Below are positions 6,130 to 38,697 of a stretch of DNA of 64,000 bases, piece by piece (positions within the stretch are counted from its first letter, which is position 1; each line of letters opens with the position of its first letter). Made by a program: the position numbers and the translations under genes. Origin of the DNA: Planobispora longispora (lineage in GTDB: Bacteria > Actinomycetota > Actinomycetes > Streptosporangiales > Streptosporangiaceae); assembly GCF_016863135.1 (NCBI RefSeq), contig NZ_BOOH01000044.1, positions 1 to 64,000 of the forward strand, given 5' to 3'. Under the pieces are notes generated by a model. That model made no database searches. It had not been told where the DNA came from and saw only the letters and a list, made by a program, of their open reading frames with translations.

Positions 6130-6750
6130 TCAGTCGAAGATCGGCGGCCTGGTCCGGGAGCGCTTGAGCTCGAAGAAGCCGTCGAAGCTCGCGACCGCCT
6201 GGACCCCGTCCCAGAGCTTGCCGGCCTCCTCGCCCTTGGGCGCGGGCGAGATGACCGGGCCGAAGAAGGCGACGTCGCCGACCGCGATCACCGGGGTGCC
6301 GACCTCCTGGCCGACCCGGTTGATCCCGTCGTCGTGCGAGGCGCGCAGCGCCTCGTCGTACTCCTCGGACTCCATCGCGTCGGCGAACGTCCGGTCCAGC
6401 CCGGCCGCCTCCAGCGCCTCCTCCACGGTCTCGCGCAGCCTGCCGAGCCGCTTGATCATGCCCTGGTTGTGGAAGCGGACGCCGAGCTCGGTGTAGAGGC
6501 GGCCGACCGTCTCGGAGTCGTACTTCCCCTGCACGGCGGCGACCACCCGGACCGGGCCGATGGCCTTGGCGATCATTTCCCGGTAGGAGTCGGGAACGTC
6601 TTTCTCCTCGTTGAGGATGTTGAGGCTCATGATGTGCCAGCGCGGCTCGATCGACCGTACCTTCTCGACTTCCAGCAACCAGCGCGAGGTCATCCACGCG
6701 AACGGGCAGAAGGGGTCGAACCAGAGGTCGACGGGGGTTCGCTCAGTCAT
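6130..6750 (-). CDS. DsbA-fold oxidoreductase (mycothiol nitroreductase-like)
   Basis: A 206-residue DsbA-family protein resembling the actinobacterial Rv2466c-type mycothiol-dependent nitroreductases. The N-terminal strand and active site read WFDPFCPFAWMTSRW, so the CxxC of classical members is CPFA here, with only the first cysteine kept. The cis-proline region GTPVIAVGDVAFFGPV is present. A one-cysteine site suggests a monothiol mechanism using mycothiol (inference). AGGAAG precedes the ATG by eight bases. It is divergent from pepN. Confidence 0.85.
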   Translation of the reverse strand: MTERTPVDLWFDPFCPFAWMTSRWLLEVEKVRSIEPRWHIMSLNILNEEKDVPDSYREMIAKAIGPVRVVAAVQGKYDSETVGRLYTELGVRFHNQGMIKRLGRLRETVEEALEAAGLDRTFADAMESEEYDEALRASHDDGINRVGQEVGTPVIAVGDVAFFGPVISPAPKGEEAGKLWDGVQAVASFDGFFELKRSRTRPPIFD

Positions 6751-6856
6751 CTGTCAGCTTCCTCGTTCAGCGGACATTCCGCACCGCAACAACCTGGGGG
6801 AGGATCCCCCTATTCCCCGGCGGATTGGTCTCCCTGTTTCGCGGAGGATTATTGCC

Positions 6857-6883
6857 TTGACGGCCTCTTTATGCTCATATGCG
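6857..6883 (+). promoter_or_regulatory. Candidate pepN promoter
   Basis: TTGACG (6857-6862) followed after 15 bases by TATGCG (6878-6883) lies in the AT-richer 240-base spacer between the divergent DsbA-fold and pepN genes. The spacer is short and the -10 poor, so this is tentative. Confidence 0.3.
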
Positions 6884-6991
6884 ATGATCACTCTGCCGCG
6901 GGGTTTCCGAAGCGGCGATCTCCTGCCTGACGTGGCAGGATTCAGGCAGCCCTCCGCAACGGAGCGGAGGAAGTCGTGACGAGGAGCGGTA

Positions 6992-9559
6992 GTGGCAGGC
7001 AATCTGACCCGTGACGAGGCCCGCGAGCGCGCACGGCTGCTCAGCGTGCAGTCGTATGCGGTGGAGCTCGATCTGACCGAGGGCGAAGAGCGTTTCGAGA
7101 GCATCACCACGGTCCGCTTCACCAGCACCCGGGCGGGCGCGGAGACGTTCATCGACCTGGCCGGCGCCAAGGTGCGCACGGCCGTCCTGAACGGCGCCGA
7201 GCTGGACGTGGCCGCCTACGACCCGGAGACCGGGCGGCTCCCGCTGCCGAACCTGGCCGAGAGCAACGAGCTGCGCATCGACGCCGACTGCGCCTACATG
7301 CGCACCGGCGAGGGCCTGCACCGCTTCGTCGACCCGGTCGACAAGAGCGTCTACCTGCACAGCCAGTTCGAGACGGCCGACGCCCACCGGATGTACGCCT
7401 GCTTCGACCAGCCCGACCTGAAGGCGACCTTCGAGCTGACCGTGCTCGCGCCCTCCCACTGGGAGGTCATCTCCAACGCCGCCCCCGACGAGGTCGAGGA
7501 GCTGGAGGGCCACCGCGGCAAGCACGGCGCGCTGCAGGACGCCAAGCGCTGGCACTTCCCGCCGACCCCGGTGATGTCGACCTACATCACCGCCCTGTGC
7601 GCCGGGCCGTACCACAAGGTGACCTCCGAGCACGACGGCATCCCGCTGGGCGTCTACTGCCGCGCCTCGCTGGCCGAGCACCTCGACGCCGACAACATCT
7701 TCGAGCTCACCCGCCAGGGCTTCGACTTCTTCCACAAGATCTTCGGCGTCCGCTACCCCTTCGGCAAGTACGACCAGCTGTTCGTGCCGGAGTTCAACGC
7801 CGGCGCGATGGAGAACGCCGGCTGCGTGACCTTCCTGGAGGACTACGTCTTCCGCTCGCGCGTCACCGACGCGGTCATCGAGCGCCGCGCCGAGACGATC
7901 CTGCACGAGATGGCGCACATGTGGTTCGGCGACCTGGTCACCATGCGCTGGTGGGACGACCTGTGGCTGAACGAGTCGTTCGCCACCTACGCCTCCGTGC
8001 TGTGCCAGGCCGAGGCCACCCGCTGGGGCCAGGGCGCCTGGACGACCTTCGCCAACGTGGAGAAGGCCTGGGCCTACCGCCAGGACCAGCTGCCCTCCAC
8101 CCACCCGATCGCCGCCGACATCGTCGACATGCACGCGGTCGAGGTCAACTTCGACGGCATCACCTACGCCAAGGGCGCGTCCGTCCTCAAGCAGCTGGTC
8201 GCCTACGTGGGCCTGGACAACTTCCTGGCGGGCGTCCGCGACTACTTCACCGAGCACGCCTGGGGCAACACCGAGCTGGCCGACCTGCTGGGCGCGCTGG
8301 AGCGCACCAGCGGCCGCGACCTGTCGTCCTGGTCGAAGGAGTGGCTGGAGACCTCCTGGGTCAACACCCTGCGCCCGTCGTTCGAGGTCGACGCCGAGGG
8401 CCGCTTCACGGCCTTCGACGTGCTGCAGGAGGCCCCGGCCGACTACCCGACGCTGCGCTCGCACCGCGTCGCCATCGGCCTGTACGCCCTGCGGGGCGAC
8501 GTCCTGGTACGGGTCAAGCGGGTCGAGCTGGACGTGGTCGGCGCCCGTACGGCGGTGCCCGAGCTGGTCGGCGAGGTCCAGCCGGACCTGGTCCTGATCA
8601 ACGACGACGACCTGACCTACGCCAAGATCCGGCTGGACGAGCGCTCGCTGCGCACCCTCGTCGAGGGCGGCATCGTCAAGTTCGCCGAGTCGCTGCCCCG
8701 GGCGCTGTGCTGGTCGGCCGCCTGGGACATGACCCGCGACGCCGAGATGTCCACCCGCGACTACGTGGCGCTGGTCACCTCCGGCATCTCCTCGGTCAAG
8801 GACATCACCGTCACCCAGACCGTGCTCCGCCAGGCCCGCCAGGCCGTCCAGCAGTACGCCGACCCCGCCTGGCGCGCCGAGGGCCTGGCCCTGCTGGCCT
8901 CCTCGCTGCGCTCGCTGGCCGAGGCCGCCGAGCCCGGCTCGGACCACCAGCTCGCCTACGTCAACGCCCTGACCGCGGTGGCCTCCTCCGCCGAGGACCT
9001 GGCGTTCCTCAAGGGCCTGCTCGACGGCACGGCGGCGCTGGAGGGGCTGGCCGTCGACACCGACCTGCGCTGGACGCTCACCCAGGCCCTGGTCTCCAAC
9101 GGCGTGCTCGGCGAGGAGGACATCGCCACCGAGCTGCTGCGCGACCCCACCGCCACCGGCGAGCGCTCGGCCGCCCTGGCGCGGGCCTCGATCCCCACGG
9201 CCGACGGCAAGGCCACCGCCTGGACGACCATGACCGAGGGCAAGCTGAGCGGCGCCCTGCTCCGCTCGACGATCCTCGGCTTCATGGACCCGCGCCACCC
9301 GGAGCTGCTGGAGCCCTACGCCGACCGGTACTTCGCCGAGATCGGCCGCATCTGGGAGTCCTGGACCTTCGACAGCGCCCAGAGCTTCGCGGTCGGCTGC
9401 TACCCGGCCCTGGCCGTCTCCCCGGAGACCGTGGCCAAGACCGAGCGGCTGATCGAGGAGACCCGGCCGACGCAGGCGCTCAAGCGCCTGCTCCTGGAGG
9501 GCGCCGACGGCATCGGCCGGGCCCTGCGCGCCCGCGCCAAGGACGCCGCATCCGCCTAG
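6992..9559 (+). CDS. pepN: Aminopeptidase N (M1 family)
   Basis: An 855-residue M1 zinc aminopeptidase removing N-terminal residues from peptides. The substrate-recognition GAMEN motif is at residues 271-275 and the zinc site HEMAH at 305-309 with the third ligand Glu328 in WLNESF. The N-terminal saddle domain and long C-terminal ERAP1-like helical domain give the usual length. No signal peptide is visible, so it is cytoplasmic. GTG 6992 has GAGGAG upstream. A strong hairpin follows the stop. Confidence 0.95.
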   Translation: MAGNLTRDEARERARLLSVQSYAVELDLTEGEERFESITTVRFTSTRAGAETFIDLAGAKVRTAVLNGAELDVAAYDPETGRLPLPNLAESNELRIDADCAYMRTGEGLHRFVDPVDKSVYLHSQFETADAHRMYACFDQPDLKATFELTVLAPSHWEVISNAAPDEVEELEGHRGKHGALQDAKRWHFPPTPVMSTYITALCAGPYHKVTSEHDGIPLGVYCRASLAEHLDADNIFELTRQGFDFFHKIFGVRYPFGKYDQLFVPEFNAGAMENAGCVTFLEDYVFRSRVTDAVIERRAETILHEMAHMWFGDLVTMRWWDDLWLNESFATYASVLCQAEATRWGQGAWTTFANVEKAWAYRQDQLPSTHPIAADIVDMHAVEVNFDGITYAKGASVLKQLVAYVGLDNFLAGVRDYFTEHAWGNTELADLLGALERTSGRDLSSWSKEWLETSWVNTLRPSFEVDAEGRFTAFDVLQEAPADYPTLRSHRVAIGLYALRGDVLVRVKRVELDVVGARTAVPELVGEVQPDLVLINDDDLTYAKIRLDERSLRTLVEGGIVKFAESLPRALCWSAAWDMTRDAEMSTRDYVALVTSGISSVKDITVTQTVLRQARQAVQQYADPAWRAEGLALLASSLRSLAEAAEPGSDHQLAYVNALTAVASSAEDLAFLKGLLDGTAALEGLAVDTDLRWTLTQALVSNGVLGEEDIATELLRDPTATGERSAALARASIPTADGKATAWTTMTEGKLSGALLRSTILGFMDPRHPELLEPYADRYFAEIGRIWESWTFDSAQSFAVGCYPALAVSPETVAKTERLIEETRPTQALKRLLLEGADGIGRALRARAKDAASA

Positions 9560-9596
9560 CCGGTCCGGTCTGAACGACCGCCGGAACCACGCAGAC

Positions 9597-9658
9597 CCGC
9601 CCCCGCCGGAAACCCGGCGGGGGCGGACCCGCTTCCGGCGGGTTTCCGGCGGGGGCGG
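9597..9658 (+). terminator. pepN terminator with alternative longer pairing
   Basis: CCGCCCCCGCCGG (9597-9609) pairs perfectly with 9614-9626 around AAAC. The same left arm plus the loop can instead pair, with one mismatch over about 24 bases, with the downstream copy near 9635-9658. Two mutually exclusive hairpins are therefore possible 38 bases after the pepN stop. Confidence 0.7.
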
Positions 9659-9680
9659 CACGGCGGGAAACCGTCCCCTC

Positions 9681-9718
9681 TTGCCAACTCATCCCAATCA
9701 TGGAATATCATCGCCATG
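9681..9718 (+). promoter_or_regulatory. ArsR-gene promoter with overlapping dyad
   Basis: TTGCCA (9681-9686) and the overlapping -10 options GAATAT/TATCAT (9703-9711) place transcription start near the GTG at 9718, so the transcript is probably leaderless. A short dyad CATGG (9699-9703) / CCATG (9714-9718) overlaps the -10 region and is a natural self-repression operator for the ArsR product. Confidence 0.45.
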
Positions 9719-10083
9719 TGACGATTGATCCTGAAGAGGACCGGTGCGTCAGCGCCGGCATCGCCGCGGGGGTCTCCCCGGCCGCGGCGCTGTTCCACTC
9801 CCTGGCCGACGAGACCCGGTTGCGCATCGTGCAGCGGCTGGCCCGCGGCGAGGCCCGGGTGGTGGACCTGACCTCCCAGCTCGCACTGGCGCAGTCCACC
9901 GTCTCCAAGCATCTGGCCTGCCTGCGCGACTGCGGATTGGTCGACTACCGCACCGAGGGCCGCCAGTCGTTCTACAGCCTCACCAGACCCGAGCTGATGG
10001 ACCTGCTGGCCGCCGCCGAGCAACTTCTGGCCGCCACCGGCCACGCGGTCGCGCTGTGCCCGATCCACCGCGACAAGGACTGA
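9718..10083 (+). CDS. ArsR/SmtB-family metal sensor, CmtR-like
   Basis: A 121-residue winged-helix ArsR repressor. The recognition helix region reads QSTVSKHLACLRDCGLVDY, and the CLRDC pair matches the Cys57/Cys61 metal ligands of the cadmium/lead sensor CmtR; a third cysteine near the C-terminus (ALCPIH) matches its Cys102. Cd/Pb sensing is therefore inferred. GTG 9718 is preferred over ATG 9700 because the -10 element would overlap the latter. Three bases separate it from the next gene, implying one operon. A further Cys lies in the N-terminal extension. Confidence 0.85.
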   Translation: MTIDPEEDRCVSAGIAAGVSPAAALFHSLADETRLRIVQRLARGEARVVDLTSQLALAQSTVSKHLACLRDCGLVDYRTEGRQSFYSLTRPELMDLLAAAEQLLAATGHAVALCPIHRDKD

Positions 10084-10086
10084 CTC

Positions 10087-10698
10087 ATGGCCCTCACCGC
10101 TTTGCTGTTGTATCTGATCGCTTCGGGCCTGGCCTTCGGCTGGCGCACGTTCCTGCACTGGCGCCGGACCGGCGACAGCGGACTGCGCCTGGACGCCGGC
10201 CCGGTCGGCTCGCTGTCGTGGTGGGCCAAGCTCGCCTTCGTCGCCGCCCTCGTCCTGGGCCTGGCCGGGCCGGTCGCCGCCCTGGCCGGTCTGGCGCCCC
10301 TGTCCGCGCTCGACCACCCGCTCGCCCGCGCCGCCGGCCTGGCGATCGCCCTGGGCGGCGCCGTGGCCACCCTGGCCGCGCAGCTGGCCATGGGCGCCTC
10401 CTGGCGGATCGGCGTGGACGCCTCCGAGCGCACCGCCCTCGTCACCGACGGACCGTTCGCGCTGGCCCGCAACCCGATCTTCACCGCGATGATCACCACC
10501 AGTTGCGGGCTGACCCTGATGACGCCCAACCCCGTCGCCCTGCTCGCCCTCGTCACGCTGGTGACCTCCGTCCAGCTGCAGGTGCGCGCGGTGGAGGAGC
10601 CCTACCTGCGGCGCGTGCACGGGTGCGCCTACCGGCACTACGCCGCCGGCGTCGGCCGGTTCCTGCCCGGCGTCGGACGCCTGCCCCACGCTCACTGA
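10087..10698 (+). CDS. Membrane methyltransferase, isoprenylcysteine-carboxyl-MT family
   Basis: A 203-residue protein with about four to five membrane helices and the ICMT/PEMT-like C-terminal signature: TDGPFALARNPIFTAM followed by EEPYLRRVHGCAYRHY, which binds S-adenosylmethionine. Bacterial members have mostly unknown substrates. It is co-transcribed with the CmtR-like regulator (three-base gap), suggesting metal-responsive expression, a recurring pairing in actinobacteria as far as I recall. Confidence 0.8.
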   Translation: MALTALLLYLIASGLAFGWRTFLHWRRTGDSGLRLDAGPVGSLSWWAKLAFVAALVLGLAGPVAALAGLAPLSALDHPLARAAGLAIALGGAVATLAAQLAMGASWRIGVDASERTALVTDGPFALARNPIFTAMITTSCGLTLMTPNPVALLALVTLVTSVQLQVRAVEEPYLRRVHGCAYRHYAAGVGRFLPGVGRLPHAH

Positions 10699-32738: not shown

Positions 32739-33120
32739 CCGGCAGGCTGTCCACGGGTCGCGGATGCGCTGGGCGCGACGGAAACCGGGCAGGCGCTCGC
32801 GGCGCCCACGCATCTCGGCGACGACCTCGGCCATCCCGCCCCCGGCGGACACTGACGGCGCAACCTCCGGCGTATCCCGCACATCAGGACAAGACACGTC
32901 AATCTCAGTGGGGAAGATCCCCTCCTCAGGAGGAGAATTTTCAACCCAGGAAACAACGGGGTGAGCCGGGGAAAATCTCGGGAGAAGTCGTCTCCCCTCC
33001 GGGGGAAAAATCCACACCCGCGAAGAGTGAGAGGGAAAGAGTTCCTCTGAAGGAGGCAATCCTCCCCCCGGGAAGAAGATTCCTTCACCGAGGCGCCGCG
33101 GACCGCACCCTCGACCCTCC
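32739..33120. other. Gene-free spacer, purine-rich with small hairpins
   Basis: About 380 bases without a supportable gene. From 32900 to 33080 the plus strand is rich in GGGGAAAATC-like and GGGAAGA-like blocks; GGGAGA (32980-32985) and TCTCCC (32991-32996) form a hairpin. Short minus-strand coding-like sequence at 32730-32850 (ending GFRRAQRIRDPWTA) may be the tail of a decayed gene. Confidence 0.5.
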
Positions 33121-33246
33121 GGAGACCCCGGGGAGCGGGCGCTGCGCCTGCTCCGTCCCGGGGACGTGTCGCCGGCCGTGGACGGCCCGGGCGATCCGGT
33201 ACGGCTCAGCGTGGACCCCGACCGCGTGCAGGTCTTCCCCGCCTGA
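33121..33246 (+). pseudogene. Relic of an ABC-transporter TOBE-domain C-terminus
   Basis: The plus frame 33121-33246 reads ERALRLLRPGDVSPAVDG and then VRLSVDPDRVQVFPA before a TGA. This resembles the last residues of the TOBE domain of sugar/molybdate-type ABC ATPases. No ATPase domain lies upstream and no start is evident, so it would be a fragment. The match is from memory of the family and is short; coincidence is possible. Confidence 0.3.
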
Positions 33247-33345
33247 GAACCGGCCGCGCGAATCTCGCATGAGAACCGGCCGCGCGAGTCTCGCATGAGA
33301 ACCGGCCGCAGGAGGCTCAGGTGAAAACCGGGCGCACGGGGCTCA
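33244..33345. repeat. 26-bp tandem repeat over TPR-gene stop codon
   Basis: Four units start at 33244, 33270, 33296 and 33322 with the pattern TGAGAACCGGCCGCGCGA (first 18 bases). Units one and two differ by one base; the fourth holds the stop codon of the minus-strand TPR gene (33343-33345). Confidence 0.9.
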
Positions 33346-35448
33346 CAGCTGCAGGGCGGCCCGGATGTCCGGGTCGCCGGGGGCCAGGTCGAGGGCCCGG
33401 CGCAGGTCGGTGCGGGCGGCCCGCTCCCGGCCCAGTGCCCGGAGCACCATGGCCCGGTTGAAGTACAGCTCCGCGCCCTCCTCGATCTCGATCGCCCGGC
33501 TCAGGTCGGCCGCCGCGCCCTCGAGGTCGCCCGTCCGGTAGCGGAGGGTCCCCCGGTTCGCCCAGGCCGCGCCGAGGTCCGGCGCCCGTTCCAGCGCCGC
33601 CTCGAACGCCTCGGCGGCCGCCGCGAAGCGCTCCGCCTCGGTGTCCAGCTGCCCCCGCACGGTCAGCAGGTGCGGGTTGCCCGGGTCGAGCGCCAGACCG
33701 GCCTCGACGTCGGCACGCGCCTCGGCCTCGCACCCGAGCACCGCCAGCGCGCCCGCCCGGTTGACGTAGGCGTCCAGGTAGGCCGGGTCCAGCTCCAGCA
33801 CGTGGTCCAGATCCGCCCGGCCGCCCTCCAGGTCCCCCCGGGCCAGGCGGAGCTCGGCCCGGTTGTAGTACGCCTCCGGCAGCGGGGGGCTCACCTCGAT
33901 CGCGGTCTCGTAGTCGGCCAGGGCCTCCTCCTCCCGGCCGAGCGCGAGCAGCAGGTTGCCCCGGTCCAGGTAGTGGTCGGGGAAGCAGGGGTCGATGGCG
34001 ATGGCCGCCGTGTAGTCGGCCAGCGCCTCCTTGCCCCGGCCCAGCGCCGCCAGCAGCTGCCCCCGGTTGGCTCGCAGGACCATCCGGTGCACCGGGTGCC
34101 GGTCCGGCAGCGCCTCCTCGGCCAGCGCCAGGGCCGACTCCACCAGCGCGAGCGCCCGGGCGGGCCGTCCCCGGCGCAGCTCGATGAGCGCCTGGCCGTT
34201 GCGGTCGAAGCCCAGTTTGAAGGCGCGTTCCCGGGGGTCGGGCAGCAGCGTGGAGATGGCCACGGCCTGGTTGATCCAGCCGGTGGCCCGGCCCAGGTCG
34301 CGCCGGGCCGGGTCGGGGTGGCGGGCGTCGAGCATGGCGGTGCCGTACGCGCAGGCCGCGTGCACGGCGGGCTCCTGGCTCACCCGACGCGCGTGCTCGT
34401 AGAGGTCGCGGGCCTCCTGGTGGCGGTTCAGGGCGCCCAGCACCGCGGCCGTGCGCTGGGTGAAACGCCACCACAGATCCGAGCCCGGCTCGGCCAGGCG
34501 CACGCCGCGCGGGCCCAGCTCGGCCACCGCGTCCAGGAAACCCTCGCGGACACAGTGGTCGACGGCGGTCCACAGCGCCTCCGCCCCCCTGCCACGGGGG
34601 TCGGTCCCGCGCTCGCGGTGGAAGGGGACGGCGCCCAGCCGGAGGGCGAACTCCCCGGTGGCCTCCAGCTCGGCGGCGCGCAGGTCGTGGAGCCTGGCGC
34701 GCTCCATCTCACCGGCCGCCTCGTAGGCGGCGCGCGAGCGCTCGTCGAGGCACTCGGAGGCCACATGGGCCGCCGCGTCGCAGGAGTGCCGCCCGCCGTT
34801 GCTCAGGAGGTGTCCGCCGTCCCGCGGGAAAGGTTCGCCGTTGCTCAGGAGGTGTCCGCCGTCCCGCGGGAAAGATTCGTCGTCGCCCGGGAACCACCCG
34901 CGAGCGTGGCCGGGGGGCTGCGGCTCCTCCGGCGCCGCCCGGCCGCGGAACCAGGATGGAGGCGGCCCGGAGGCCACGATCATCACCGTCAGCACGTCCG
35001 GGTCCACGCGCCTGAGCATGACCGCGAGCAGTTCGCGATCGGTCGGGTCGGCCTCGTGGATATTCCGTACCACCAGCGTGAACGGCGCGGCGGCGCGGCG
35101 GGCGGGCAGGCAGGCGCCGAGGAACTCCGCCACCCCGTTGGCCAGCCGGAGCGTACGGCGCGGCGCCGGCACGAGGATCCGTTCGTCGTCCTCGACCAGG
35201 GTGTCCAAGGTCTTCCGGCGCGCGGCCACCCGGTCCCGCAGATCGGGCGCCACGCTCCGGATCTCGATGTCGTGGGAGGCGACCTGCTCGGGGGCCCGCT
35301 CCAGGGCCTCAGGGACGATCGCGCGCAGCAGAGCTCCGCCGACGGTGTAGGGACCACGTGACCGCCGGTGCCCGTTCACCTCGAGGGAGGGGGGGTCCGC
35401 GCGGTCACAGCCGGGTGTTCTTCCGGTCAGCCAGAGATGTTTCCTCAC
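33343..35448 (-). CDS. TPR protein with degenerate AAA-like N-terminus
   Basis: A 701-residue protein. Residues about 20-170 resemble the STAND/AAA region of MalT-like proteins (VVRNIHEADPTDRELLAVML is Walker-B-like), but I find no P-loop GxxxxGK[ST]. From about residue 340 a solenoid of some ten TPRs follows, e.g. GKEALADYTAAIAIDPCFPD and DLEGGRADLDHVLELDPAYL. A 14-residue in-frame duplication (PRDGGHLLSNG) lies near residue 205. GTG 35448 overlaps the stop of the 24-residue peptide gene (GTGA), so both are co-translated. TPRs suggest peptide or protein binding; role unknown. Confidence 0.8.
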   Translation of the reverse strand: MRKHLWLTGRTPGCDRADPPSLEVNGHRRSRGPYTVGGALLRAIVPEALERAPEQVASHDIEIRSVAPDLRDRVAARRKTLDTLVEDDERILVPAPRRTLRLANGVAEFLGACLPARRAAAPFTLVVRNIHEADPTDRELLAVMLRRVDPDVLTVMIVASGPPPSWFRGRAAPEEPQPPGHARGWFPGDDESFPRDGGHLLSNGEPFPRDGGHLLSNGGRHSCDAAAHVASECLDERSRAAYEAAGEMERARLHDLRAAELEATGEFALRLGAVPFHRERGTDPRGRGAEALWTAVDHCVREGFLDAVAELGPRGVRLAEPGSDLWWRFTQRTAAVLGALNRHQEARDLYEHARRVSQEPAVHAACAYGTAMLDARHPDPARRDLGRATGWINQAVAISTLLPDPRERAFKLGFDRNGQALIELRRGRPARALALVESALALAEEALPDRHPVHRMVLRANRGQLLAALGRGKEALADYTAAIAIDPCFPDHYLDRGNLLLALGREEEALADYETAIEVSPPLPEAYYNRAELRLARGDLEGGRADLDHVLELDPAYLDAYVNRAGALAVLGCEAEARADVEAGLALDPGNPHLLTVRGQLDTEAERFAAAAEAFEAALERAPDLGAAWANRGTLRYRTGDLEGAAADLSRAIEIEEGAELYFNRAMVLRALGRERAARTDLRRALDLAPGDPDIRAALQL
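34798..34881. repeat. In-frame 42-bp duplication in TPR gene
   Basis: The 42-base unit starting GTTGCTCAGGAGGTGTCC is present twice (34798 and 34840), adding 14 residues in frame to a low-complexity linker of the TPR protein. Confidence 0.8.
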
Positions 35449-35519
35449 CCCTTGTGGATGACGCTGGAAGCGCCACTCAGCCTGGTGGTGCCGGGCTTGC
35501 GGACGATGATCTTTTTCAT
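35445..35519 (-). CDS. 24-residue basic peptide coupled to TPR protein
   Basis: An ATG with AGGGGA five bases upstream opens a 24-residue frame beginning MKKIIVRKPGTTRL and ending SVIHKG, then TGA overlapping the GTG of the TPR gene by four bases. It is basic (Lys/Arg-rich first third) with a Ser/Thr/Gly-rich second half and no cysteine or classical signal sequence. It has its own promoter-like elements. Possibilities are a peptide signal, a modified-peptide precursor, or a translation-coupling leader. I do not recognise it from a named family. Confidence 0.6.
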   Translation of the reverse strand: MKKIIVRKPGTTRLSGASSVIHKG

Positions 35520-35553
35520 CGCATCCCCTGAAACGAGCTGCAGCTACGATGAA

Positions 35554-35583
35554 AAAATATTCCGCGATTTCATCAGATCGCAA
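35554..35583 (-). promoter_or_regulatory. Promoter of the peptide-TPR operon
   Basis: On the minus strand TTGCGA (35583-35578) and TATTTT (35559-35554) are 18 bases apart, in a markedly AT-rich patch 35 bases before the peptide ATG. This supports the peptide gene as the first gene of the transcript. Confidence 0.5.
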
Positions 35584-35602
35584 TCCCCGGTAAAGGAATA
35601 GT

Positions 35603-35614
35603 CTGGAATTCCAG
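35603..35614. terminator. 12-bp palindrome between GNAT and peptide genes
   Basis: CTGGAATTCCAG is a perfect palindrome immediately beyond the GNAT stop and upstream of the peptide promoter. It is short for a terminator and may be an operator. Confidence 0.35.
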
Positions 35615-35615
35615 G

Positions 35616-36110
35616 TTATGTAGGCGATACGGACATCGCCTCAATTAGCTCCTTTTCGCCATATATCACGACACATCCGCCTCGTACTTCTCTGCGAACT
35701 TCGTGCCAGCCGTACTTGCGATAGAGCTCGATCGCAGCCGACTGGTTCAGTGTCGTGTCCCCCCTCAGCCGCAGGTACCCCAGCTCAAGGGCGCGGATCT
35801 CCAGGGTCGAGACCATCCGCGCGCCGTACCGGCGCCGCTGGAACTCCGGGTGGACCCGGAGGCGGCACATCTCGGCCGTCTCATCATCGACGCGGCGGAT
35901 GCCGCCCATCGCCACGACCCGTCCAGCGACCTCTCCCACGAGGAACTCCCCCCGATCGGCGAGATAGATCTCGTTGATCCGCGGGAAGTCGTCGTCGTAC
36001 CAGACGCCGTCACCTGGGGCGAGGCCCACCTGGGCCAGGCAGATCTGGTGCAGCGCCCAGACGGAGTCGAGGTCAGACCAGCGGTAGCGCCTGATCTCGA
36101 GGTCGCTCAT
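35616..36110 (-). CDS. GNAT-family N-acetyltransferase
   Basis: A 164-residue single GNAT domain. MCRLRVHPEFQRRRYGARMV is the acetyl-CoA site and NQSAAIELYRKYGWHEVRRE the C-terminal motif, both close to RimI-like protein N-acetyltransferases. Its ATG overlaps the stop of the HTH-TPR regulator gene (ATGA), so the two are co-translated. It lies 97 bases upstream of the peptide gene in the same orientation; acetylation of the peptide is a speculative possibility. Confidence 0.85.
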   Translation of the reverse strand: MSDLEIRRYRWSDLDSVWALHQICLAQVGLAPGDGVWYDDDFPRINEIYLADRGEFLVGEVAGRVVAMGGIRRVDDETAEMCRLRVHPEFQRRRYGARMVSTLEIRALELGYLRLRGDTTLNQSAAIELYRKYGWHEVRREVRGGCVVIYGEKELIEAMSVSPT

Positions 36111-37687
36111 GCATTGCCACCCCTCAGCGTCACCGGCTCGGTCACCGGAGCCGCGCGCAGCGTCTCGTGGAAGGTCCTGAGGTCCGGGTGGTTCGGAGCC
36201 TTGCTCTCCACGAGCTGGACCACTTCCTGGGCCCGCCGCATGAGGATCTCGGTGCGGCAGCCCTCGCCCAGGCCCGAGACCGTGTTCGTGGCGATCGACA
36301 GCGCCTCGTCGATGTCGCCCTCCATGACCTTGCACTTGGCCCGGTCGAGCTTGATGAGCGCGGGGTCGAGCCAGTCGGACGGGCCGTACTTGGTGAGGGC
36401 CTGCTCCAGGATGAGGTCGGCCTCCATCGCCTGGCCCAGCCGGACCAGCGCGTCCCCCTGGTGGAAGTAGAGCTGCCGCTCGGTGTAGCCGAAGGCCAGG
36501 TCTTCCTGCTCGGCCGTGGTCATCTGGGAGAACGCCGCCCTGGCCCGGGACAGCGCCCGCTTGGCCTGGTCGACGACGTCCTTGCGGCCCGCCGTCCCCG
36601 AAGTGCCCGAGAGCATCGCGATCGCCCGGGCCTCCACGACCGGCGCCATGGCCCGGGCCGCGCAGGGGGTCTCGCCCGCCATGTCGCGGCTCTTCTTGGC
36701 CAGGTTGAGCGCCTCGCGGGGGTCGCCGTAGTAGAGCGGGACCAGCGCCTCCCTGGCGGTGACCCAGGCGCGCAGCGCGCGGTCCCCGGTCTCGTCGGCC
36801 GCCGTCCTGCCGGTCCTGAAGAAGGACCGGGCCATGCGGTGGTCTCCCAGGTTAATCATGATCATCCCGCTGAGACCGGCCAGCTGGGCCGCCATCCGGC
36901 ACAGCCTCTCCTGCAGGTCGACGGGCTGACGGCGCTCCATGGCCTTGCGCACGGAACTGAACTCCAGCAGCACGTCGCAGAGCAGCCGGAGCGGCGGCGT
37001 GTTCATGTACTGCCGCCCGAAGCCGACGGTGGCCTCTTCCCACTGGTCGAGCATCGCGGGTGAGACGGTCGCCGACACCAGGGTGTCGTCCATCCTCCGG
37101 CGGATGCTCTCGACAGATCCGAGGACCTGGCCGTCCAGGGCGACAGTGCCGCCGGCCAGAAGTCCCAAAAGCGTTCTCCGTAGCACGTTCTCGTCCTCCT
37201 CGCCCCCGTCCGCAGAGGAATCGCTGCTGGCCTGCTTGATCCACAGCTCGCGCGGACCAGGGGAAGTGTCGGGTTTTCCCTCCTGGAGATCGCCTCGGAC
37301 GACACCGGGCATCTTGTGGCCGTGGCCGCAGATGCACGGGCCCTCGTATCCAAGGGCGACCGGTTCCACCCGGTAGACGGTGCACAGGTAATGCAGGTAT
37401 TCGGGGCCGGGTCGCTTCAGCCCGCTCTCGTAAGCGGACAGGAGCGTCTCCCCGATGCCCGGCGTCGGTTTCGCGTCGCGCTCGAACAGTGCCCTGACCT
37501 GTTCGATCACGTCGGCGAGAGCGATGCCGTGCGCGAGACGATGACCTTTGATGCGCGTGGTCCCGAACTGGCCACTGCACTTCTCGTAGATCTCCTCGGC
37601 GATCTGCGCCGCGGTGCGTCCCGCGGCCAGGCCTCGCGCCCGGACCTGCCGCGCTAACTCTGTTTCCCTGTGCTGCCTGCCGGACAT
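36107..37687 (-). CDS. XRE-type HTH regulator with TPR-like C-terminus
   Basis: A 526-residue regulator. After an N-terminal helix block, the XRE HTH ends in LLSAYESGLKRPGPEYLHYLCTVYRVEP (given as two overlapping halves of the motif), followed by a CICGHGH segment that could bind metal. From about residue 190 to the end helical TPR-like repeats follow. This architecture resembles RRNPP-type peptide-responsive regulators of Firmicutes, and is common in actinobacteria without known ligands. ATG 37687 has GAGAGGGG upstream. A 15-base dyad lies 72 bases upstream of the start. Confidence 0.82.
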   Translation of the reverse strand: MSGRQHRETELARQVRARGLAAGRTAAQIAEEIYEKCSGQFGTTRIKGHRLAHGIALADVIEQVRALFERDAKPTPGIGETLLSAYESGLKRPGPEYLHYLCTVYRVEPVALGYEGPCICGHGHKMPGVVRGDLQEGKPDTSPGPRELWIKQASSDSSADGGEEDENVLRRTLLGLLAGGTVALDGQVLGSVESIRRRMDDTLVSATVSPAMLDQWEEATVGFGRQYMNTPPLRLLCDVLLEFSSVRKAMERRQPVDLQERLCRMAAQLAGLSGMIMINLGDHRMARSFFRTGRTAADETGDRALRAWVTAREALVPLYYGDPREALNLAKKSRDMAGETPCAARAMAPVVEARAIAMLSGTSGTAGRKDVVDQAKRALSRARAAFSQMTTAEQEDLAFGYTERQLYFHQGDALVRLGQAMEADLILEQALTKYGPSDWLDPALIKLDRAKCKVMEGDIDEALSIATNTVSGLGEGCRTEILMRRAQEVVQLVESKAPNHPDLRTFHETLRAAPVTEPVTLRGGNA

Positions 37688-37758
37688 ACCGGCCCCTCTC
37701 TCGTGCACCAGCTGGGCGAGCTGGTTCACTATGTCCCGACCGGTCCTCTCCCGCTGAC

Positions 37759-37773
37759 TCAGTGTGACACTGA
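37759..37773. promoter_or_regulatory. 15-bp perfect dyad upstream of HTH-TPR gene
   Basis: TCAGTGT (37759-37765) and ACACTGA (37767-37773) form a 7+1+7 palindrome in the 340-base divergent spacer 37688-38027. It is the obvious candidate operator for the adjacent HTH-TPR regulator. The rest of the spacer is AT-richer and holds no gene I can support. Confidence 0.6.
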
Positions 37774-38027
37774 TGTCGCACTGCGCCTACAGAGAATGAT
37801 GGACCACCTTTGGCTCATCCGGAACCTCGGAATAGAGCCATCGGCTAAGGATCGTCTCCCGCCGGACTGTTTCTTTCAACCTACTTGGGAGAAGGCCCAC
37901 CCTGACCTCCCAATCCGCGACGTTGACCCTTGAGCCCAGGTGAGTCATCTTTGGCCAACCAGCACTGATTCAGCGGAAGAAAAGAATGCGATTCGGTGCG
38001 GATGGAGCGGAAAAGGAGGGAATCGAG

Positions 38028-38312
38028 GTGCAGGAAGACGACTTCGGGCACCTGGAGCGATTGGTGTCGGAACTTGACGCTCGCGGGTTGCACGCCCGGG
38101 TGGTGCGGACCCGTTCGGGCCGCGCATTCGTCCGCGTGATCAACCCGAACGCGACCAGTCTGGCGGAGAACGTCACCTGCCGAGCTCAGGCCGCCCCCAG
38201 CCACCCTGATTGGTACTACTGGTGGTCCTGGGGTGAGCGGATGCACACGGCGGAAGACCCCGCCGGTGCCGCGACCAAGGTCGCACGCGTACTCGCCGCG
38301 GTAGGAGAGTGA
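38028..38312 (+). CDS. Small hypothetical protein (94 aa), divergent from regulator
   Basis: GTG 38028 has an AGGAGGG site seven bases upstream. The 94-residue product starts with an acidic helix (QEDDFGHLERLVSELDARGL), then strands RVVRTRSGRAFVRVINP and an aromatic cluster PDWYYWWSWGERMH. I do not know the family, but small proteins of this kind are often encoded beside HTH-TPR regulators in actinomycetes. It is probably a target of the neighbouring regulator. Confidence 0.7.
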   Translation: MQEDDFGHLERLVSELDARGLHARVVRTRSGRAFVRVINPNATSLAENVTCRAQAAPSHPDWYYWWSWGERMHTAEDPAGAATKVARVLAAVGE

Positions 38313-38697
38313 GAGAAGCGATGCCCCGGGATGGAGCGCAGCCGTCCCGGCTCATCGCGCCCACCGCGGCTCAGCGGAGCCGGCGAGGTGACCGGTGCGG
38401 AGCGTCCCTGGACGCTGGACACCTCGCCGGCTCCGAAATCGGAGCCGCCGCCCGGGCTCGTCCGGGCGGTGATCGGGGGGATCCCCCCACGGGAACGGCA
38501 CGGGACACGCTTCCGGGTGCGTGCCCCGTCCGTGCCGTACGTCACCGGAGCGTCAGGACTCGCCCCCCGCGGCCCCGGGTCCCGATGTCCCCGTCTTCCC
38601 CGGCGTGATGTGACGACGGCCGGCTTGGTCGGCAATATGGGTACGGTCGATGACTTTGCCCCATGCCGACCGAGCCGATCCGGGAGGGATCCTCTCC
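38313..38697. other. Highly structured spacer upstream of MscS gene
   Basis: No gene is supported here, but several hairpins are: CCGGGA/TCCCGG with flanking CGATG/CATCG (about 38329-38362); a perfect 15-bp stem 38376-38390 / 38420-38434 whose 29-base loop holds AGCGTCC (38401-38407) / GGACGCT (38410-38416); GGGGGGATCCCCCC (38475-38488); and GGCACGG/CCGTGCC near 38496-38537. The first probably terminates the upstream gene; the rest could be a regulatory leader. Confidence 0.6.

Follow-up and report, generated by a model that had tools for sequence, protein, structure and literature searches.

What is the role of a conserved 24-residue peptide whose gene is directly followed and overlapped by the gene for a large tetratricopeptide repeat (TPR) protein? 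The question is raised by a locus in a 64,000-nt stretch of the Planobispora longispora contig NZ_BOOH01000044.1 (hereinafter, the window; coordinates refer to it unless stated otherwise), in which four genes, all on the minus strand, encode an NsdA-like regulator, a GNAT acetyltransferase, the peptide and a 701-residue TPR protein. The peptide gene (35445..35519, minus strand; 24 codons and a stop) encodes MKKIIVRKPGTTRLSGASSVIHKG, and the TPR gene (33343..35448, minus strand), identified by TPR Pfam models and the predicted structure of its product, starts with a GTG codon that overlaps the peptide stop codon (GTGA). An earlier reading of the sequence alone (the sequence-only reading) had described these four co-oriented genes and the overlap, and their coordinates were confirmed; it proposed that the peptide could be a ligand, possibly acetylated, of a peptide-sensing system, with a modified-peptide precursor and a mere coupling leader as alternatives. 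Here, we describe the peptide and the TPR protein as a real, widespread and unnamed two-gene module, and weigh what the peptide might do within it.

A short peptide under purifying selection

The 24-residue peptide is basic, lacks acidic residues altogether and, by direct reading, contains neither a hydrophobic signal-like stretch nor any other secretion-type sequence, no signal predictor having been run; none of the Pfam and NCBIfam models matched it. The genome that contains the window encodes three members of the peptide family (E-values of 7e-14, 1e-12 and 2e-12, with the next match at 0.27). The second member, on contig 64, again precedes a TPR protein, which is 58% and 56% identical to that of the window in two pieces and is the only relative that the window TPR protein retrieved from its own genome at E≤1e-5. 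The third member is located 3' of a gene taken for ftsY, in a neighborhood where no TPR was detected; in two genomes of the genus, such a third copy, GTG-started and 3' of an ftsY-like gene with no TPR found nearby, was seen (L005, at ~6415, and L072, at ~4023, in oriented coordinates). The 24-codon gene recurs in numerous genera of the Streptosporangiaceae, including Planobispora, Nonomuraea, Streptosporangium, Microtetraspora and others, and matches to the peptide family at E≤1 were obtained in 152 of 297 genomes of that family, a count whose weakest members are unchecked.

The loci are assigned below to three types: type A, which is that of the window; type B, with the peptide MKKVIVHKPGTVxLxGAASPKHVG; and the more distant type C, which includes an additional gene. 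When loci were picked by the TPR protein, the ratio of nonsynonymous to synonymous changes (pN/pS) in the peptide gene was 0.29 for type A (63 loci) and 0.22 for type B (14 loci); when they were picked by the peptide, with the window included, the respective values were 0.24 (26 loci) and 0.43 (37 loci). The final eight codons of type A are the most constrained part (pN/pS of 0.18). The 24-residue gene is thus real, as the sequence-only reading had assumed, and is under purifying selection as a protein. That reading had named peptide residues evolving neutrally, with only the overlap conserved, as the finding that would speak against it; the opposite was observed, with the residues selected and the overlap missing from type B. 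All 24 TPR-bearing type A loci, that of the window among them, have the GTG overlap (GTG at +71), whereas neither ATG nor GTG occurs at the peptide stop codon in any of the 32 TPR-bearing type B loci, three of which have an in-frame TTG. Because type B encodes the same peptide without an ATG/GTG overlap, the conservation of the residues is not due to the overlap and, because the type B pair exists without it, the peptide is more than a simple coupling leader.

The peptide and the TPR protein form a two-gene module

The sequence-only reading had suggested a search for the pair in other actinomycete genomes. Such a survey was led by the TPR protein: the best 80 of 139 loci were chosen by the TPR core alone, and the region upstream was then inspected. 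With two loci at contig ends (L211 and L238) excluded, the peptide was found directly upstream of the TPR gene in 77 of the remaining 78, with scores of at least 47.6, compared with at most -5.8 in control stretches from the same loci. Of 394 sampled genomes of the class, 18 contain the TPR core (E≤1e-8); the peptide search at E≤1e-3 recovered 19 genomes, namely, all of these 18 and one TPR-less genome (G552), whose match is incomplete and falls within a longer frame (at E≤0.5, 248 of the 394 genomes matched, the weak matches listed being mostly short ones within longer frames). The converse survey, led by the peptide, comprised 62 loci and the window. A TPR protein of the usual type is not encoded directly downstream of the peptide in seven of these loci (L083, L095, L005, L072, L081, L064 and L071); in L064 and L071, a different TPR protein, 47% identical between the two, is encoded directly upstream. 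Types A, B and C have only the TPR protein in common as a partner, and the module consists of two genes, that of the peptide and that of the TPR protein. A few loci count against a strict pairing. L227, the sole exception among the 78, has the TPR gene and 1.36 kb of upstream sequence without the peptide; in L005, L072 and L081 (3 of the 62 peptide-led loci), the peptide is conserved but the stretch yielded no TPR; and in L064, a usual-type TPR gene lies 2.6 kb away on the opposite strand, and no peptide was detected ahead of it.

The peptide seems to drift once the TPR protein is lost. This was observed in five type A loci without a TPR gene (L275, located at the same place as L083; L279; L280; L281; and L095, all but the last from the GNAT-led survey described below), its absence extending over the full 10-12 kb for L083, L095 and G005 and over ~1.4 kb downstream for L280 and L281. 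Ten positions are nearly invariant in the peptides that accompany a TPR protein (constancy of 97% or more); one or more of them are altered in four of the five TPR-less loci, compared with 3 of the 63 loci with a linked TPR gene (p of 2e-4 in a Fisher test). The four changes, K23T, K23E, P9V and I21M, differ from one another, and the K23T peptide also overruns the usual stop. None of eight TPR-linked loci from the same clade showed such an alteration (p=0.007), rare residues at any position, counted by leave-one-out, were present in 5/5 TPR-less peptides compared with 19/66 others (p=0.003), and H7 was found in 5/5 TPR-less but only 3/63 linked peptides (p=5e-6). Other aspects of the comparison weaken this reading: the ten positions were picked from the TPR-linked peptides, which biases the contrast of 4/5 with 3/63 in its favor; L281 is altered at one variable position only; and the TPR-less loci represent two genera, and hence have limited independence, with several of the peptides nearly intact.

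Shared ancestry with a RiPP-type cassette

In the seven type C loci, distant relatives of the TPR protein are preceded by a membrane protein of ~400 residues and, before that, by a peptide such as MKKIKIRKAGPVRLTAAACSIYKNPN; the hosts are Planobispora, Streptosporangium, one more genus of the same family and members of three further families. The window peptide and the type C peptides have in common the leader-like start MKKIxVRKxGxVRL. In the membrane protein, an HExxH motif (H168, E169 and H172) and the sequence LRTDLY are invariant in all six aligned proteins, in agreement with the HExxH and downstream Asp motifs of M50 site-2 proteases. Structural comparison of its residues 6-91 yielded, as neighbors, recognition elements (RREs) of ribosomally synthesized and posttranslationally modified peptide (RiPP) pathways, namely, lasso peptide RREs with leader peptides (5v1v, Z-score of 8.7, rmsd of 2.3 over 79 residues; 6jx3, Z-score of 8.0), as well as PqqD (Z-score of 7.2), whereas the membrane part aligned with SpoIVFB (Z-score of 7.0, rmsd of 5.4 over 160 residues), a modest similarity that may reflect a common arrangement only. 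The RRE assignment comes from a VIA-align comparison of a model of moderate quality (pLDDT of 76); Foldseek alone returned nothing significant for this protein (best E-value of 0.25), and none of the three type C membrane proteins scanned rose above the curated Pfam or NCBIfam family cut-offs. Judging from the predicted structure, the middle gene of type C looks like one for an RRE/site-2-protease (S2P)-like membrane protein, which would make these cassettes RiPP-like clusters.

In a tree of 38 TPR proteins, type A (19 rows, support of 100/98) and type B (14 rows, 100/99) each form a clade, and the two group together (100/100) with type C outside; the tree is unrooted. A common ancestry links the peptide-TPR module to a RiPP-type cassette. 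Types A and B resemble such cassettes without the leader-binding protein and, because the leader-like part is conserved, the TPR protein is the natural candidate for its reader. The membrane protein would have been lost rather than gained, a direction against which the lack of a root in the TPR tree has to be set. No RRE or maturation enzyme was recognized beside the pair in the window, and no relative of the type C RRE/S2P-like protein was found in the window genome at 1e-15. The modified-peptide precursor offered as an alternative by the sequence-only reading is borne out in part, with respect to ancestry, the cousins of the peptide being part of an RRE/S2P-like cassette. M50 proteases are components of RiPP clusters for epipeptides and pearlins (EpeP, TglG and TmoG), as described in part of the text of PMC10885120. 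Type C resembles cassettes that combine an RRE (lasso B1 or PqqD) with an M50 protease in having a leader-like precursor and an RRE/S2P-like protein, whereas the window pair has no such protein beside it and corresponds to these cassettes in the conserved, leader-like N-terminal part of its peptide. The FxSxx-COOH RiPP system, another actinomycete peptide that goes with a TPR protein, was considered and discarded: the window peptide lacks the FxSxx end, and neither P0002 nor the peptide gave a match to a model of that name. In the literature searched, mostly outside subscription journals, no paper on the peptide-TPR pair or the type C cassette was found.

Searches against the PSLDB plasmids returned 24 records for one type C protein and three for part of the window TPR protein. 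A plasmid of Streptomyces sp. NBC_01450 (L303) encodes, in the type C gene order and at its positions 6725-10368, a precursor-like open reading frame (ORF) ending in MRKISVRRTEPIKVTSAPFSHQPAIVPV, an RRE/S2P-like protein and a TPR protein. Several observations were made along the way. The RRE/S2P-like protein of L303 is annotated as hypothetical, and transposase genes flank the cassette on both sides; a relative on a Streptomyces plasmid adjoins an annotated ThiF family gene; and other tiny ORFs, for instance, MKKLIVRRLESVKTSAATSCSVVVA and MKKLVVRKLEPIKTSANADCVPAAA, occur near some of the more distant RRE/S2P-like proteins (L250-L265), so that RiPP-like cassettes of this kind may make up a wide and unnamed group in actinomycetes. 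In a remote TPR relative (L160), the TPR core is preceded at a distance of ~590 bases by a small ORF, MRKMTVRRKSAVRLLSGARRLWIEWCW, which begins with a similar leader-like sequence and has Trp at position 22. In L153, L154 and L155, the type C TPR gene is followed by a gene for an NADH:flavin oxidoreductase-like protein (Old Yellow Enzyme, by eye), a possible modification enzyme.

Predicted structure of the TPR protein

The TPR protein consists of a region (residues ~1-175) with a weak resemblance to a degenerate STAND/AAA_16 domain, a disordered linker and a helical TPR solenoid (~219-701), and its structure was predicted with a pLDDT of 91.5. A 42-bp tandem duplication (FPRDGGHLLSNG twice; 34794..34883) is located within the TPR gene, in the linker, which was modeled with low confidence. 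The closest folds include KLC1 with a JIP1 peptide (Z-score of 21.5, rmsd of 2.5 over 220 aligned residues), LGN complexes (Z-scores of ~22) and OGT (Z-score of ~21). Structures of TPR domains in complex with peptides, such as KLC1-JIP1 and LGN, are thus among the nearest; RapI (Z-score of 19.4, rmsd of 5.6 over 251 residues) appears alongside many other TPR proteins, a large number of which tie. Asn occupies position 6 in four of the repeats (in 35, 35, 35 and 34 of 35 proteins), and the TPR region carries a net charge of -13 to -31 in all 35. The acidity of the TPR region and the Asn pattern would suit an extended basic peptide, to judge by the sequences. Both features are, however, common among TPR proteins, and of the seven repeats checked, three depart from the Asn pattern (D in 32/35, V in 24/35 and N in 18/35).

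In the N-terminal region, the model displays strands and helices in an order compatible with an NTPase fold; the AAA_16 match is weak. The Walker A motif (GxxxxGK[ST]) is not intact: the sequence at its place is GPYTxGGA, and the column of the lysine contains G in 22, A in 8, S in 4 and R in 1 of 35 proteins. Two points weigh against a firm assignment of this region, namely, the E-value of the AAA_16 match (0.011) and the placement of Walker A in an alignment of our own, with the N terminus barely covered by the fold comparison. None of the HTH (helix-turn-helix) models matched the 701-residue protein.

Possible functions of the pair

On balance, we consider it slightly more probable than not that the peptide acts inside the cell as a ligand or partner dedicated to the TPR protein. 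The peptide would be translated and remain inside the cell, where it might occupy the conserved groove of the TPR solenoid encoded by the next gene, and its presence could set the state of the TPR protein. Because the Walker lysine appears to be missing, the P-loop-like N-terminal domain would serve as a scaffold or a switch rather than as an NTPase. The version found in the window would have dispensed with the membrane protein and retained the leader-like sequence along with the TPR protein. Direct binding, action within the cell, a regulatory output and the pseudo-NTPase are what we infer from the pairing, the peptide sequence and the predicted structure. The most specific form of this scheme, in which an unmodified, nonsecreted 24-mer is, throughout much of a bacterial family, the ligand of a pseudo-NTPase TPR switch that was born from a RiPP cassette through the loss of the RRE/protease, leaving the TPR protein as the sole reader, appears possible but falls short of probable. 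Should it be correct, it would outline a route from a RiPP precursor to a regulator, with a natural-product pathway turned into an intracellular signaling pair; the pair also provides a two-gene test case for genetically encoded intracellular peptide ligands in actinomycetes.

Several other explanations were weighed against the intracellular ligand. The peptide could still be a RiPP precursor, modified or cut by enzymes encoded elsewhere, with the TPR protein as a scaffold, a carrier or an immunity protein. The leader-like start in common with type C precursors, which adjoin the RRE/S2P-like protein, points in this direction, as does a gapless alignment by eye, in which H22 coincides with W22 of L160 and, among the four distinct type C peptides, with Y22 of three, the Tyr of the fourth being displaced by one residue; furthermore, TPR proteins of unproven role are present in RiPP clusters, such as AmmC2 of ammosamide and BipC of biphenomycin, according to portions of PMC12424672 and PMC12707348, respectively. 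Yet the window genome lacks a relative of the type C protein at the above threshold (other kinds of enzymes encoded elsewhere were not searched for), no modification enzyme recurs among the matches listed beside types A and B except for the type A GNAT, and the Cys that several type C peptides contain is absent. Moreover, RiPP cores usually vary, whereas the last eight codons of type A are the most constrained. This explanation, the main rival of the intracellular ligand, seems rather unlikely. A secreted and reimported pheromone sensed by the TPR protein in the manner of RRNPP systems is improbable. RRNPP receptors, such as Rap, Rgg, NprR, PlcR and PrgX, respond to propeptides that are exported and then reimported. 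The two-gene layout of these systems, with a TPR receptor and an adjacent small peptide gene (described in excerpts of PMC10075063), fits 77 of 78 loci; the likeness extends to a short gene-encoded peptide next to a solenoid that is presumably its receptor, and RapI is among the structural neighbors. The window pair differs from them in that its peptide has no secretion-type sequence and is conserved across genera instead of being diversified, its TPR protein is 701 residues long with no HTH found and a degenerate STAND-like N terminus, and its host is an actinomycete, RRNPP systems being those of Bacillota. Membership in RRNPP, a family that the sequence-only reading had invoked, fails on the first two of these differences.

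Were the peptide antibacterial or toxic, with immunity conferred by the TPR protein, its basic character would be in agreement. The chromosomal neighborhood is conserved, however, the peptide persists without the TPR protein in five loci, which would be unexpected for a toxin, and PADLOC returned no match for the TPR protein, the GNAT, the NsdA-like protein or one type C protein (the peptide itself was not scanned), which makes this function very improbable; with the same four proteins unmatched, a role in antiphage defense was set aside. A leader that couples translation of the TPR gene, in accord with the GTGA overlap throughout type A, is largely contradicted by type B and by the conserved residues, and has next to no plausibility. 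The sequence-only reading had put forward a candidate four-gene system; in the version weighed here, the NsdA-like protein would sense the peptide and the GNAT would acetylate it. The four genes are co-oriented, and an NsdA-like gene is found in 59, and a GNAT gene in 58, of the 63 type A loci. Nevertheless, an MscS-like channel gene is an equally frequent neighbor (52-57 of the 63, depending on the query), so shared synteny alone can explain the proximity. Among 30 loci chosen by the GNAT (the best 30 of 78 matching genomes out of 150 searched, and hence near relatives), NsdA-like genes were present in 30, the peptide in 23 and the TPR gene in 19, never without the peptide, so that NsdA-GNAT occurred without the peptide in 7/30; several Nonomuraea loci contain ~1.5 kb of extra sequence between GNAT and peptide or have no NsdA-GNAT within 4 kb; and neither NsdA nor GNAT was matched near type B within the 10-kb stretches. 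NsdA and GNAT are neighbors separable from the peptide-TPR pair, and the four-gene system, whose proposed operator is not conserved either (see below), is very improbable.

Neighboring genes and regulatory elements

The HTH-TPR regulator that the sequence-only reading had noted upstream of the pair (P0004; 36107..37687, minus strand) is a member of the NsdA family (NF053720, 137.2 bits, with a cut-off of 75). In Streptomyces, NsdA exerts pleiotropic negative control over development and antibiotics, according to PMC7105598. The window protein thus belongs to a family of regulators of Streptomyces development, whereas its gene, as outlined above, is separable from the peptide-TPR pair and lies outside the core module. 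The same position outside the module applies to the GNAT acetyltransferase gene (35616..36110, minus strand; Acetyltransf_1, 8.5e-16), which overlaps the NsdA-like gene via ATGA and is separated from the peptide gene by 96 bases.

A separate promoter before the peptide gene had been predicted, and a promoter-like sequence, TTGCGA-16-AATATT (35556..35583, minus strand), read from the sequence, is indeed present 5' of the gene, with similar sequences 5' of some relatives. Of 64 type A and 14 type B upstream regions, 18 and 11, respectively, contain one promoter pattern (compared with 0.2 and 0.1 in mononucleotide shuffles), and 17 and none contain another; these counts are uncorrected for the kinship of the loci. 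A regulon defined by CTTGN{16,20}CGAATAMT was tried and dropped: a single genomic site was found, 5' of the second peptide gene, and the reversed control also gave one, making the search uninformative. The 15-bp perfect dyad TCAGTGTGACACTGA (37759..37773), located 5' of the NsdA-like gene and suggested for a reporter assay in the sequence-only reading, is present but was rejected as an operator, the full dyad occurring in 1 of 57 NsdA upstream regions, that of the window itself, and the core GTGNCAC in 3 of 57. No structured RNA matched Rfam at the gathering score in the window region 33000-38500. A 26-bp tandem repeat of ~4 copies (33240-33347) spans the stop codon of the TPR gene, and a small protein encoded divergently from the NsdA-like gene (37986-38312, plus strand) has relatives in 59 of the 63 type A loci.

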